Of a DNA stretch of 64,000 nt, positions 4,703-50,988 are shown one piece after another. Source of the stretch: Tumebacillus lacus (GTDB taxonomy: Bacteria; Bacillota; Bacilli; Tumebacillales; Tumebacillaceae); assembly GCF_026410385.1 (NCBI RefSeq), contig NZ_JAPMLT010000013.1, forward strand, positions 62,001 through 126,000, in the 5' to 3' direction. The number at the start of each line of letters is the position of its first letter. The first letter of the stretch is position 1. The notes under the pieces were generated by a model. The model did not search any database and was not told where the DNA came from. It saw nothing but the letters and a program-made list of their open reading frames with translations. A program made the position numbers and the translations under genes.

Positions 4703-5195
4703 CTTGAGTCCTTCCTTGTCCTAAATTCAGATTGCACTCATCATATCTCTACACTCAGCTACGAGCAAGCATGCCGTTTACCGCACATGCGTTTTGGTGT
4801 GTAAAAGCAGTGAAGAACTACTTGGCAAGGAATTGAAGTGCTGAAGACAGATAGACTCAAGATTTTGGGTGTTGATTCGATGGATTATGGGTAGGATACT
4901 GCCTCAGTAGACGTTGACAACAGTTGAGTGCGAACATACAATATTTGCAACAGTGCTCACCACGCCTCTCCACGATGCGTACCAGGGTGGGCCTTTTTTT
5001 ACCTGCCACACGGACAATTGCAAATACCATTCGCGTTCTCAGCCAGGCGGAAGTTTCGCAGCAAGCCCACCGTGATTTGATCGAGAATCGTATGTAAGAC
5101 ACGAAAAACTTCTACAAATAAGGTATAATGTAAAAAGTGCTGAGCTATCGGTTTTGAGGATCAATATTTCTACTACTTGAAAGAGAGTGAAATGA
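4703..5195. other. Intergenic stretch between marC and yeeI
   Basis: I see no confident gene in these 490 bases. An 81-codon open frame on the minus strand (5102 to 4857) is Cys-rich near its end (CCKYCMFALNCC) but lacks a ribosome site. The only clear signal is a TATAAT box at 5124-5129 with a poor -35, probably the yeeI promoter. Confidence 0.4.
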
Positions 5196-10815: not shown

Positions 10816-10966
10816 ACAAGCAAGACGTACAATAAAAAATGACCATAGGTGCGGGAACACCTACGGTCGTTTGACACAACTGATACCCGTCAAGGGTGTC
10901 GGCTCATACTTCTAGCTGAAATAGATCGCCAGAGGTGCTAACTCATGGGGCGATCTATTTCTTTTT
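10816..10966 (+). ncRNA. Type I antitoxin RNA overlapping the toxin mRNA 3' end
   Basis: Predicted ~150-nt RNA from the promoter at 10780 to a strong terminator: GAAATAGATCGCC (10918-10930) pairs with GGCGATCTATTTC (10949-10961), then TTTTT. It runs convergently into the toxin gene and covers its last codons and 3' untranslated region, as in TxpA/RatA and BsrG/SR4 pairs. Two further hairpins (10841-10868 and around ACCCGTCAAGGGTGT) lie inside. The first of these also serves as the toxin mRNA terminator on the other strand. A related module lies at 3783-3935. Antitoxin action is inferred from the architecture. Confidence 0.65.
10839..10868 (-). terminator. Toxin mRNA terminator
   Basis: On the minus strand GACCGTAGGTG pairs with CACCTATGGTC (one G-U pair) around a TTCCCG loop, then ATTTTTTATTG. 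It ends the toxin transcript inside the antitoxin RNA. Confidence 0.65.
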
Positions 10967-11074
10967 GTTCTGTATGTCAAACCAATCCTTGATGATCTTC
11001 AAGACCAGCATAAGCGCTGAGACGAGGAACAATCCGAATTGGAGCATGAGTGAAATCACTTCATGAGTTGACAT
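10955..11074 (-). CDS. Holin-like type I toxin, 39 aa
   Basis: Starts MSTHEVISLMLQFGLFLVSA and ends ALMLVLKIIKDWFDIQNKKK: one hydrophobic helix with a charged Lys-rich tail. This is the pattern of the 'putative holin-like toxin' family of Firmicutes type I systems, small peptides that disturb the membrane when overproduced. The ribosome site AGGGGGTGAG is nearly perfect but can be locked in a 10-bp hairpin by the upstream CTCACTCCCT. The gene has its own promoter and a convergent antisense RNA. It lies between ywqBA and the DUF1385 gene. Family assignment is by pattern and context. Confidence 0.8.
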   Translation of the reverse strand: MSTHEVISLMLQFGLFLVSALMLVLKIIKDWFDIQNKKK

Positions 11075-11078
11075 ATCT

Positions 11079-11104
11079 CTCACCCCCTTTCAATAGGGAG
11101 TGAG
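11079..11104 (-). promoter_or_regulatory. Hairpin sequestering the toxin Shine-Dalgarno
   Basis: In the toxin 5' leader CTCACTCCCT (11104-11095) can pair over all ten bases, with one G-U, with the ribosome site AGGGGGTGAG (11088-11079) across a 6-base loop ATTGAA. Such self-inhibition of the full-length transcript is known for type I toxins. Pairing is seen in sequence; the effect is inferred. Confidence 0.65.
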
Positions 11105-11144
11105 CCGATCACCCTTGAGGAGCCTATTCAATTGTGTTGTTTGT

Positions 11145-48632: not shown

Positions 48633-49166
48633 ATTCTCGTAGACATACAGCTTGCCGTTGTCCGGGGTGTTGAATGTGGGACCGGTAAAGCCGCGTTTGA
48701 GCAGTTCTTTGCGCAAGGTCATCATGCAGGCGCCGTGGGAGACGATCAACACATCTTCGCTGCTCTCCTGCAGGATCTCGTCGAGGATGGTGCCGAGCCG
48801 CTCTTTGATGTCGGCTTGGTTTTCCAATTGGGATGGATGGTCGATCGCCCAAGCGATGCGCACGAGGATGCCCCAGAGGAGAAAGGGCAACCGGACGTGA
48901 CGCTTAAAGAACGGATACGCTCTCAGTTCCCGCAGAGCGGTGCTCGTCTTGATCTCCCCGTGATAGATCGTCTTCGCCGTCTGCACGGCGCGTGGCAGGT
49001 CGCTGGCATAGCAGCGTTTCCAGTTCACGCCGCCCAGATCGACCGTGCCGATCTCGATGTCGGCTGCGTCGTATTCATCAAACCATTTCAAAAACTCGTC
49101 AGGCCCCACCAATCCTTTTGGGAAGCCCATCCGGACTTTAAAATGCCGCACCAGACCCACTTTCAT
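48630..49166 (-). CDS. Histidine phosphatase family protein
   Basis: 178 aa. N-terminal KVGLVRHFKV supplies the catalytic RH (the usual Gly after RH is Phe). CYASDLPRAVQTAKTIY follows the family pattern, and VLIVSHGACMMTLRKELL carries the second His. ATG 49166 follows GGGTGAT; the frame is open 17 codons earlier. Phosphomonoesterase or mutase branch; substrate unknown. Divergent from the riboswitch-controlled acetyltransferase. Confidence 0.88.
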   Translation of the reverse strand: MKVGLVRHFKVRMGFPKGLVGPDEFLKWFDEYDAADIEIGTVDLGGVNWKRCYASDLPRAVQTAKTIYHGEIKTSTALRELRAYPFFKRHVRLPFLLWGILVRIAWAIDHPSQLENQADIKERLGTILDEILQESSEDVLIVSHGACMMTLRKELLKRGFTGPTFNTPDNGKLYVYEN

Positions 49167-49210
49167 CGTATCACCCGGTTTCTCGTTTTTGGAAAAGTAT
49201 AACAGGGGTC

Positions 49211-49240
49211 TTGCCATTGGACAAGGGAACCTGCTATCAT
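49211..49240 (+). promoter_or_regulatory. Promoter of the riboswitch/GNAT transcript
   Basis: TTGCCA (49211-49216), 18 bp, TATCAT (49235-49240) with an extended TGC. Expected start near 49247, just before the aptamer. Confidence 0.55.
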
Positions 49241-49254
49241 AATTTCAAATCACT

Positions 49255-49408
49255 GGAAGGTCATCTAGGGAGCCGACGTCCTGAGCGGGACGGTTCGAAC
49301 CGAGCGATGGCAGGCATCCCGAGCGGGATGTCACACCGTAGGGATAAAAGACCTCGGAAAGTTCCATGTGCCTGTCTGGCAGGCGCATCGGGACGGACCG
49401 GGGTTTTT
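49255..49408 (+). promoter_or_regulatory. ykkC-family riboswitch with overlapping terminator
   Basis: Aptamer 49255-49360: P1 AGGTC (49258-49262) with GACCT (49350-49354), conserved CTAGGG (49265-49270), a GTCC/GGAC hairpin, AACCGAGCG, a CATCCC/GGGATG hairpin, then ACACCG and GGGATAAAAGACC. The last block is the hallmark of the ykkC class, which includes guanidine-I, ppGpp, PRPP and nucleotide-sensing variants. A terminator (CCTCGG 49352-49357 with CCGGGG 49398-49403, extended by TTCC and an ATGTGCCTG hairpin, then TTTTT) reuses the 3' strand of P1. Ligand binding should therefore prevent termination (an ON switch). The ligand subtype is not certain. Confidence 0.8.
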
Positions 49409-49433
49409 CTGTATATTTTAAGGGGGGATTCAC

Positions 49434-50012
49434 ATGAGTGAGCAAGAAACACGGCCGTCTTATCCGGAACAGTTCGAATCGGAGCGGCTGATCATCCGCT
49501 TCCCGCGGCCTTTGGAGGACGCGGCACAGGTCAATGCCGGCGTGCTGTCGAGTCTCGATGAGCTGATCCCGTGGATGCCGTGGGCGAGACAACCGTACAA
49601 CTTGGAACAGCAGATCGAAAGTTTGGAAAAGGCGCGGCAGGAGTCGCTGGAGGGGGCCGATTTTCGTTTGTTGCTGTTTGCAAAAGAGACCGGGGAACTG
49701 GTCGGCTCCAGCGGTCTGCACCGGATCAACTGGAAGGTGCGCAAATTCGAGATCGGCTACTGGGCGGTCACCGCTCACAGCGGCAAAGGCTACATCACCG
49801 AAGCGGTGGAGCGAATCACGCAGTACTGCATCGAGGAGTTGCAAGCCAACCGGGTGGAGATCCGCTGCGACGCGTTGAACGTGAAGAGTGCGGCGGTGCC
49901 CAAGCGCCTTGGGTTCAAGCTGGAAGGCGTGCTGCGCAAAGACGATGTCGACCCGAACGGAGATCTGCGGGACACGTTCGTCTTTGCCAAGGTGCGTGGC
50001 GAAGAATTTTAA
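49434..50012 (+). CDS. GNAT acetyltransferase (RimJ/RimL-like) under riboswitch control
   Basis: 192 aa. FESERLIIRFPRPLEDAAQV at the N terminus, IGYWAVTAHSGKGYITEAVE (acetyl-CoA loop) and CDALNVKSAAVPKRLGFKLE are the RimJ/RimL type, close to enzymes acetylating ribosomal-protein or small-molecule amines. AGGGGGG precedes the ATG. It is the only gene between the ykkC-type switch and the next terminator, so its substrate or pathway should relate to the switch ligand. Confidence 0.92.
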   Translation: MSEQETRPSYPEQFESERLIIRFPRPLEDAAQVNAGVLSSLDELIPWMPWARQPYNLEQQIESLEKARQESLEGADFRLLLFAKETGELVGSSGLHRINWKVRKFEIGYWAVTAHSGKGYITEAVERITQYCIEELQANRVEIRCDALNVKSAAVPKRLGFKLEGVLRKDDVDPNGDLRDTFVFAKVRGEEF

Positions 50013-50025
50013 AGGGAAAGATAGG

Positions 50026-50056
50026 GGAGCCTCGGCAGGGTCGAGGCTCCTTTTTT
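50026..50056 (+). terminator. Terminator of the riboswitch-controlled GNAT gene
   Basis: GGAGCCTCG pairs with CGAGGCTCC, then six Ts. Confidence 0.88.
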
Positions 50057-50148
50057 AGTGGGATAACGTGGGAATACAGTACAGCGAACCCTTGCTAGAA
50101 GGGAGCGACAACGACTATCTTTTATATAAGAGGAGAGTGATTTCCAAG

Positions 50149-50988
50149 ATGAGCGATCAAAACAAGCATGCGCACGAAAAAGGCATACATAGAGACTTTG
50201 CAAACGACATGACGTACGGCGACTACCTGCAATTGGACAAGGTGCTGTCGGCGCAGCAGCGGCTGTCCGATCATCACGACGAGATGCTGTTCATCATCAT
50301 CCACCAGACCAGCGAACTGTGGATGAAGCAGATCCTGCATGAGATGGGCGTGGCCAAGCAGTGCATCCTGCAGAACAATCTGGAGCCGGCGTTTAAGATG
50401 CTGTCCCGCGTGTCGCGCATCCAGCACCAGTTGATCCAGTCGTGGGATGTGCTGTCGACGCTGACGCCGTCCGAGTATATGGAGTTTCGGGAGAAGCTCG
50501 GGCGTTCGTCCGGCTTTCAGTCGTACCAGAACCGCCTGATCGAGTTTACGCTCGGGCACAAAAATGCGCGGGTGCTCACCGTGTACCAGCATCAACCGGA
50601 GCTGTATCAGCGACTGGAAGAGACGCTGCATGAGCCGTCTCTTTATGACGCGTCGATCATGGCACTGTCGCTTCGCGGGTTGACGGTGGACCAGGCGGCG
50701 CTGGAGCGCGACTGGTCGCTGGAGTATGTCGAGAACAACAGCGTGCGCGAGGCGTGGCTGACCGTGTATCGCGACGTGGAGAAGTATTGGGATCTGTACG
50801 AACTGGCGGAGAAATTGGTCGACATCGACTCGCGCCAGCAACAGTGGCGGTACAACCACATGATCACCGTCGAGCGCATCATCGGGCACAAGATGGGCAC
50901 CGGCGGCTCCTCCGGGGTGGAATATTTGAAGAAAGCACTCGAAGGCCGCTTCTTCCCGGAACTGTGGAGTTTGCGCACGTCTTTATAA
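50149..50988 (+). CDS. kynA: Tryptophan 2,3-dioxygenase
   Basis: 279 aa haem enzyme opening the indole ring of L-Trp to N-formylkynurenine. [37 protein letters not shown] (distal pocket His), [15 protein letters not shown], and [20 protein letters not shown] (proximal haem His, C-terminal GTGGSSG loop) are diagnostic. ATG 50149 has AGGAGAG about 10 bp upstream; an in-frame start 27 codons earlier lacks a site. kynB and kynU are not adjacent, so the rest of the pathway must be elsewhere or missing. Confidence 0.96.

Follow-up and report, generated by a model that had tools for sequence, protein, structure and literature searches.

A ykkC-fold leader RNA, probably a natA-type (p)ppGpp riboswitch, ahead of a single GNAT acetyltransferase gene in Tumebacillus lacus

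The acetyltransferase gene and its leader

The window analysed here is a 64,000-nucleotide stretch of the Tumebacillus lacus genome (assembly GCF_026410385.1, contig NZ_JAPMLT010000013.1, positions 62,001 to 126,000 of the forward strand), and all positions below are counted from its first base. Two of its elements are considered in detail: an RNA of the ykkC fold at 49253–49368 (+), hereafter the window RNA, and the gene for a GNAT acetyltransferase at 49434–50012 (+), hereafter the window GNAT (Table 1). A preliminary description of the locus had assigned the pair a dedicated promoter, and a sigma-70-type site is indeed found ahead of the RNA; it is the sole forward-strand site among the three promoter-like sites in 49100–49500 (both strands), against 0.3 expected in shuffled sequences. 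The aptamer blocks likewise lie where they had been placed, with AACCGAGCG at 49298–49306, ACACCG at 49333–49338 and GGGATAAAAGACC at 49341–49353. The same description had proposed a terminator that reuses the P1 strand. A terminator is present and its 3′ end carries TTTTT at 49404–49408, but instead of P1 it reuses the 3′ strands of both P0 and P3. A simple terminator scan of the region called nothing at 49347–49408, probably because the stem is interrupted. Downstream, an inverted repeat was called by a repeat scan of 49950–50200 on the reverse strand only. Since this repeat and its run of six T lie directly 3′ of the window GNAT, they probably mark the end of a one-gene unit, in which the window GNAT would stand alone.

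Table 1. Features of the leader and gene (window coordinates)
Feature	Position	Strand	Basis
Sigma-70-type promoter, TTGCCA-18-TATCAT, TG ahead of second hexamer	49211..49240	+	10/12 matches
ykkC aptamer with P0, most likely subtype 2a (natA-type)	49253..49368	+	RF00442 match and subtype profiles
P0 5′ strand UGGAA, partner 49362–49366	49254..49258	+	4/5 P0 pairs with two-sided changes
P1 5′ strand, partner 49306–49311	49260..49265	+	5/6 pairs with two-sided changes
P1b hairpin, variable	49277..49292	+	Sequence, folding
Marker base C (position 49; A in guanidine-I)	49305	+	Alignment, context-defined sets
P1 3′ strand	49306..49311	+	Pairs with 49260–49265
P2 hairpin	49315..49330	+	Folding
CACC, C75-A76-C77-C78 of ligand pocket (mapped numbering)	49334..49337	+	Motif counting
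P3 hairpin AGG/CCU with G.A and AUAAAAG loop	49340..49354	+	RF00442 match, pair covariation
Intrinsic terminator, exclusive with P0 and P3	49347..49408	+	−38.9 kcal/mol (terminator segment alone)
P0 3′ strand UUCCA, also within terminator 5′ arm	49362..49366	+	Folding
Ribosome binding site AAGGGGGG	49420..49427	+	Sequence
GNAT acetyltransferase, 192 aa, RimL/YdaF/MccE-like (PF13302)	49434..50012	+	Open frame
Inverted repeat, then TTTTTT	50026..50056	+	Sequence

The window GNAT matched PF13302 at 98.5 bits. Its nearest relative of solved structure by sequence was 1nsl (E = 3.6e-18), which we take to be YdaF, followed by 2fck and by MccE (3r95). The five NCBIfam models listed all scored it under their cut-offs, the best being RimL at 48.7 bits. 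A structure model of the protein (mean pLDDT 75.6, from four sequences) was compared with solved entries using VIA-align, in which rows less than 1 apart are considered tied; the top rows for this predicted fold were 1nsl (Z 22.4), RimL entries (Z 22.2–21.5) and MccE 3r95 (Z 21.4), with rmsd of 2.1–2.2 over 172–176 residues, and SpeG and RimJ entries ranked close behind. The window GNAT therefore has the same predicted fold as RimL, YdaF and MccE, but is only 19–27% identical to them in sequence, and it falls short of the equivalog cut-off of 184 bits for RimL, the L7/L12 acetyltransferase.

Class and subtype of the aptamer

Membership of the ykkC class, as claimed in the preliminary description, was confirmed by covariance search. 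RF00442 (Guanidine-I) produced a full-length match at 49254–49361 (+) with 40.2 bits and an E-value of 9.2e-6 in 601 bases, though below the gathering score of 63. Across the whole genome the same match was recovered at E = 1.5e-5 as one of four RF00442 matches at E up to 1, and under relaxed thresholds RF00442 was the single Rfam family matching the window RNA. A default Rfam scan did not report the RNA, because its score is below gathering.

Four subtypes of the second ykkC group are set out with their genes in the available text of PMC7266159: 2a (ppGpp), 2b (PRPP), 2c (nucleoside diphosphates) and 2d (unsolved). According to the portions available of PMC6031431 and PMC5912903, the A found at position 46 of guanidine-I aptamers gives way to a pyrimidine in aptamers for ppGpp and PRPP, whose two ends pair as P0, and a G at position 96 is present in PRPP aptamers and absent from ppGpp aptamers. 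In the window RNA the diagnostic A is replaced by C and the P0 helix is present, which places it in subtype 2.

To resolve the assignment further, profiles were trained on leader sets labelled by downstream gene alone, using short motifs within 1,500 bases downstream: 74 2a, 13 natA, 60 2b, 18 guanidine and 3 NUDIX leaders (168 RNAs). Training left out 98 of 308 loci as unlabelled, and 12 of 266 distinct sequences were set aside because their start was not recognised or they contained an N. The marker base followed context closely, being A in all 18 guanidine leaders, C or T in 60/60 purine and 72/74 amino-acid leaders, C in 13/13 natA leaders and G in the three NUDIX leaders. The window RNA, which was outside all training sets, scored 61.3 bits with the natA profile, 42.8 with that of the other 2a RNAs, 30.4 with 2b/PRPP and 10.7 with guanidine-I, in agreement with the earlier impression that it was nearer to the ppGpp and PRPP variants than to guanidine-I; the NUDIX profile, built from only three RNAs, returned no score. 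Leave-one-out typing of the 168 RNAs was correct for 73/74 2a (the other being called natA), 60/60 2b, 18/18 guanidine and 3/3 NUDIX leaders, and for 8 of the 13 natA leaders (four were called 2a and one 2b). These profiles partly measure kinship, as natA leaders from the same family as the window were in training; without them the margin of 2a over 2b was 12.4 bits.

A natA aptamer from Clostridiales has been reported to prefer pppGpp about 10-fold over ppGpp and was used in an in vivo reporter (PMC12373219, available text). RNAs of the natA type are thus likely (p)ppGpp sensors, as is the window RNA by kinship. L253, L262 and L265, which are natA-like leaders found in other classes, scored higher with the 2a profile than with the natA profile, and so the Clostridiales natA aptamer may represent another 2a branch.

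The bases that contact ppGpp are A5, G6, G48, C75, A76 (in some chains), C77, G104 and G105 (PMC6031431 and PMC5912903, available portions). This numbering was mapped onto the window RNA by counting between motifs of fetched PRPP-type leaders rather than from the crystal sequence; on this basis A5, G6, G48, C75, A76, C77 and G105 are kept and G104 is replaced by A. Sixty-one RNAs selected as 2a-type, the window RNA among them, were aligned by fitting to a model constructed for this work (R1, see below). Of these RNAs, 38 have A at position 104 and 23 have G, A5, G6, G48, C75, A76, C77, C78 and G105 were identical in all 61, and the marker was C in 55. Judged from sequence, the pocket positions of the window RNA are ordinary for 2a. 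Two-sided changes were observed at 15 of the 20 pairs in the alignment, and 97.6% of its cells were able to pair, against 26.9–48.6% when partners were slid, although the alignment leans to its model.

The most likely identity of the window RNA is a natA-type (p)ppGpp (2a) riboswitch acting on an unusual target, the GNAT gene, and it adds no new riboswitch class. In common with the natA branch of 2a it has the marker pyrimidine, P0, CACC, the pocket bases and the overlap with a terminator, and its 3′ part closely resembles that of ABC-ATPase leaders from the same family. It differs in that it would control a GNAT rather than an amino-acid, gltB or natA gene, a context that describes known 2a members but does not define the aptamer, and in its linker before A103, which lacks one to three bases relative to 10 of 13 other RNAs compared.

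Relatives of the RNA and the pairing with GNAT genes

Relatives were sought with RF00442 in 151 genomes, and again over 14 of these, and with model R1 in runs over 14, 398 and 398 genomes (overlapping sets). R1 was built from 25 subtype-2 RNAs including the window RNA, and its E-value for the window RNA is therefore by construction. Loci were recognised by sequence pattern, with 20 fetched loci that did not fit left uncounted, and contexts were read from downstream frames; Pfam was applied to 10 downstream genes besides that of the window, and other gene names were assigned by motif or by eye.

Among the matches listed, the nearest RNAs precede genes for ABC-transporter ATPases, labelled natA-like after PMC5912903 (available text), and for MFS transporters. 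A near-kin RNA in the T. lacus genome itself (L081) lies before an ABC-ATPase gene (ABC_tran by Pfam), and four others from the same family as the window (L079, L142, L143 and L155) precede natA-like genes. Many further natA-like leaders were found elsewhere, with the gene at L364 confirmed by Pfam. The near kin have in common the sequence ...ACACCGUAGGGAUAAAAGACCU(n)CGG(n)AAGUUCC..., with small variations. At L080 the RNA stands before apparent natA remnants, which are followed by a GNAT gene. The short linker before P0 recurs in L078 and L148 (MFS transporter) and in L080 (natA remnants), and a similar one is present in L247 (glutamate synthase-domain gene) and L074 (aminotransferase class IV gene). 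When scored with RF00442, the window RNA and L078, L079, L080 and L081 spanned 24.7–42.6 bits, all below the gathering score; natA-type members are easily missed at this Rfam cut-off, which constitutes a detection gap.

Several other contexts were encountered. The two MFS leaders (L078 and L148) are natA-type, ppGpp-like RNAs from two species of the window's genus, with the gene at L078 confirmed by Pfam, and are themselves examples of an unusual target. Elsewhere in the phylum, 2a-like RNAs precede genes for a BPD_transp_1 permease, an SNF-family symporter and an M20 peptidase (L244, L246 and L252, respectively). A distinct ykkC group (L131, L136, L137 and L077) has CACCUAUUG or CACCUACUG replacing the usual CACCGU; the first three combine GAGGG with a NUDIX motif within 1.5 kb downstream and the fourth combines GAGCG with a Ham1-family gene, and the group is possibly subtype 2c. 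Lastly, two guanidine-like RNAs (L091 and L092) are followed by a tandem pair of small genes, apparently for SMR transporters, and carry GAGGG and CAACGG where guanidine RNAs have GAGAG and CACGG.

A GNAT gene was located within 1.4 kb downstream on the same strand for 5 of the 315 distinct ykkC RNAs among the matches listed (the window RNA, L126, L132, L082 and L080). As an upstream control, a GNAT gene within 1.4 kb on either strand was found for 2 of 136 RNAs with enough sequence, again among the matches listed, and GNAT genes were therefore not enriched next to these RNAs. With no downstream excess, the count does not point to any special association; in the window, the case for a link is based on leader anatomy, the GNAT being the gene directly behind this terminator. 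Typing by profile placed 173 of the 314 typed RNAs among the matches listed (training RNAs included) in the ppGpp type (113 2a and 60 natA). Within the five GNAT-linked cases, the window RNA and L080 typed as natA, L126 and L132 as 2a, and L082 as 2b by 0.4 bits (44.9 vs 44.5 for 2a). Two of these were rejected as clean second cases, L082 being not typable and the GNAT of L080 lying behind the apparent natA-operon remnants. The other two, L126 and L132, are clean 2a-type cases from two genera of one other family, each followed by two GNATs in a row, and the first L132 GNAT is 30% identical to the window GNAT over 121 residues.

No further GNAT case was present among the matches listed for the family and order of L126 and L132 (the same 5 genomes), and the 1-genome family of G025 added none. 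In one further order (198 genomes), 50 loci were listed and 48 recognised; these were read by eye, were mostly natA-like leaders, and none had a GNAT match. Approached from the protein side, 18 other loci that carry relatives of the window GNAT yielded no window-type RNA (for L013, only 106 bases upstream), and the pairing consequently looks recent.

The preliminary description had also held that a GNAT is not a usual partner of the ppGpp and PRPP variants. This holds for subtype 2, in that neither "acetyltransferase" nor "GNAT" occurs in the main texts of PMC7266159, PMC5912903 and PMC12373219. A literature search on ppGpp riboswitches or ykkC together with acetyltransferase or GNAT did not return the association in the text available, the comparison covering gene lists other than those of the original ppGpp, add-on-helix and NDP reports. 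The description had left a choice between a new target of a known ligand and a new ykkC variant. The natA-type 2a grouping favours the former, and a GNAT as the probable target of a natA-type (p)ppGpp riboswitch is a pairing not named in the accounts searched. A new variant is not supported, since the pocket follows 2a and the short linker recurs in L078, L148 and L080, with similar linkers in L247 and L074.

Ligand, proposed switch and possible role

Three alternatives, guanidine-I, PRPP and a new ligand class, were each tested and ranked below the (p)ppGpp reading on the basis of Rfam, the marker base, profiles and pocket bases. The strongest of them, though unlikely, is that a natA-like aptamer has come to recognise a different ligand, such as a toxic amine or antibiotic handled by the ABC, MFS and GNAT products. 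The possible efflux genes and the acetyltransferase do look like components of a detoxification set, GNATs also follow guanidine-IV variants (PMC9788692, available text), the group of the window RNA has a short linker and A104, and the aptamer of PMC12373219 may, as noted, belong to another branch. However, the remaining pocket bases are those of 2a, both L247 and L074, with their similar short linker, have ppGpp-type contexts, and a natA aptamer has been reported to bind (p)ppGpp (PMC12373219, available text).

More doubtful is a PRPP (subtype 2b) riboswitch. The scaffold, P0 helix, CACC and C marker are common to this subtype and the window RNA, and purE lies downstream of some 2b RNAs that lack a preceding guanine aptamer (read by eye). 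Nevertheless, the 2b profile score was 12–31 bits lower than those of 2a and natA, counting without gaps from C75 places a C (49355) at the conserved G96 position (the alignment being uncertain in this linker), the CCCAGGCGG(G)-UAGG tail of many purine leaders and the CCCAGGCGGG tail are both absent, and no purine gene lies directly downstream. A guanidine-I riboswitch or a decayed, non-functional copy is very improbable: although Guanidine-I is the sole Rfam match and shares the overall fold, and a natA-type RNA in G012 precedes apparent natA remnants, the former is contradicted by the marker C, the change of CACGG to CACCG and the added P0, and the latter by helices, promoter, terminator and ribosome binding site that are intact by sequence and prediction, together with an open GNAT frame.

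Returning to the (p)ppGpp reading, the free leader was computed to fold into the terminator at 49347–49408, with energies for 49253–49412 of −76.8 when free and −60.6 with the aptamer enforced, tertiary and ligand energy being excluded. The 5′ arm of the terminator contains the 3′ strand of P3 (49352–49354) as well as that of P0; aptamer and terminator are therefore mutually exclusive, and ligand should favour read-through. A hairpin and T run taking most of the P3 and P0 3′ strands were present at 15 of the 15 GNAT, MFS and natA loci checked, with hairpin sequences that were changed yet matching (the P0 strand of L082 was read by eye). The ON switch anticipated in the preliminary description is, at the level of prediction, upheld by this arrangement.

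Whereas the anatomy is read directly from the sequence and the folds are computed, we infer (p)ppGpp as the ligand and a rise in read-through as its effect, and consider it probable (roughly 0.8) that a natA-type (p)ppGpp riboswitch of ykkC subtype 2a switches on the lone GNAT gene in response to increased alarmone. Transcription would start just 5′ of P0, and without ligand the nascent RNA would form the terminator, such that RNA polymerase would stop before the ribosome binding site. With (p)ppGpp in the pocket, perhaps with pppGpp preferred as in one natA aptamer, P3 and P0 would be held, the terminator would not form, and the window GNAT would be made.

If this is true, an acetyltransferase joins the genes placed under the starvation alarmone through an RNA sensor, and starvation may directly switch on acetylation in Tumebacillus lacus. 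The stringent response would then be tied directly to the acetylation of ribosomal proteins, polyamines or aminoacyl-nucleotides, these being candidate substrates suggested for the enzyme. A more elaborate proposal, which we regard as quite unlikely, is that the natA-type (p)ppGpp riboswitches of the family run a small resistance regulon against inhibitors of aminoacyl-tRNA synthetases, whereby inhibition would increase uncharged tRNA and hence (p)ppGpp, which would induce both export (natA-like ABC and MFS transporters) and, at this locus, a RimL/MccE-like acetyltransferase inactivating aminoacyl-nucleotide poisons.

Two other RNA matches were obtained elsewhere in the window. An Rfam BsrG match at 10844–11138 (−), scoring 80.4 bits against a cut-off of 55, contains a 42-aa frame at 10955–11083 (−) whose peptide presumably resembles a TxpA/BsrG-type membrane toxin, and the locus is a probable type I toxin-antitoxin pair. 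An abiF RNA match at 4956–4992 (+) scored 37.8 bits, just above its cut-off of 37.
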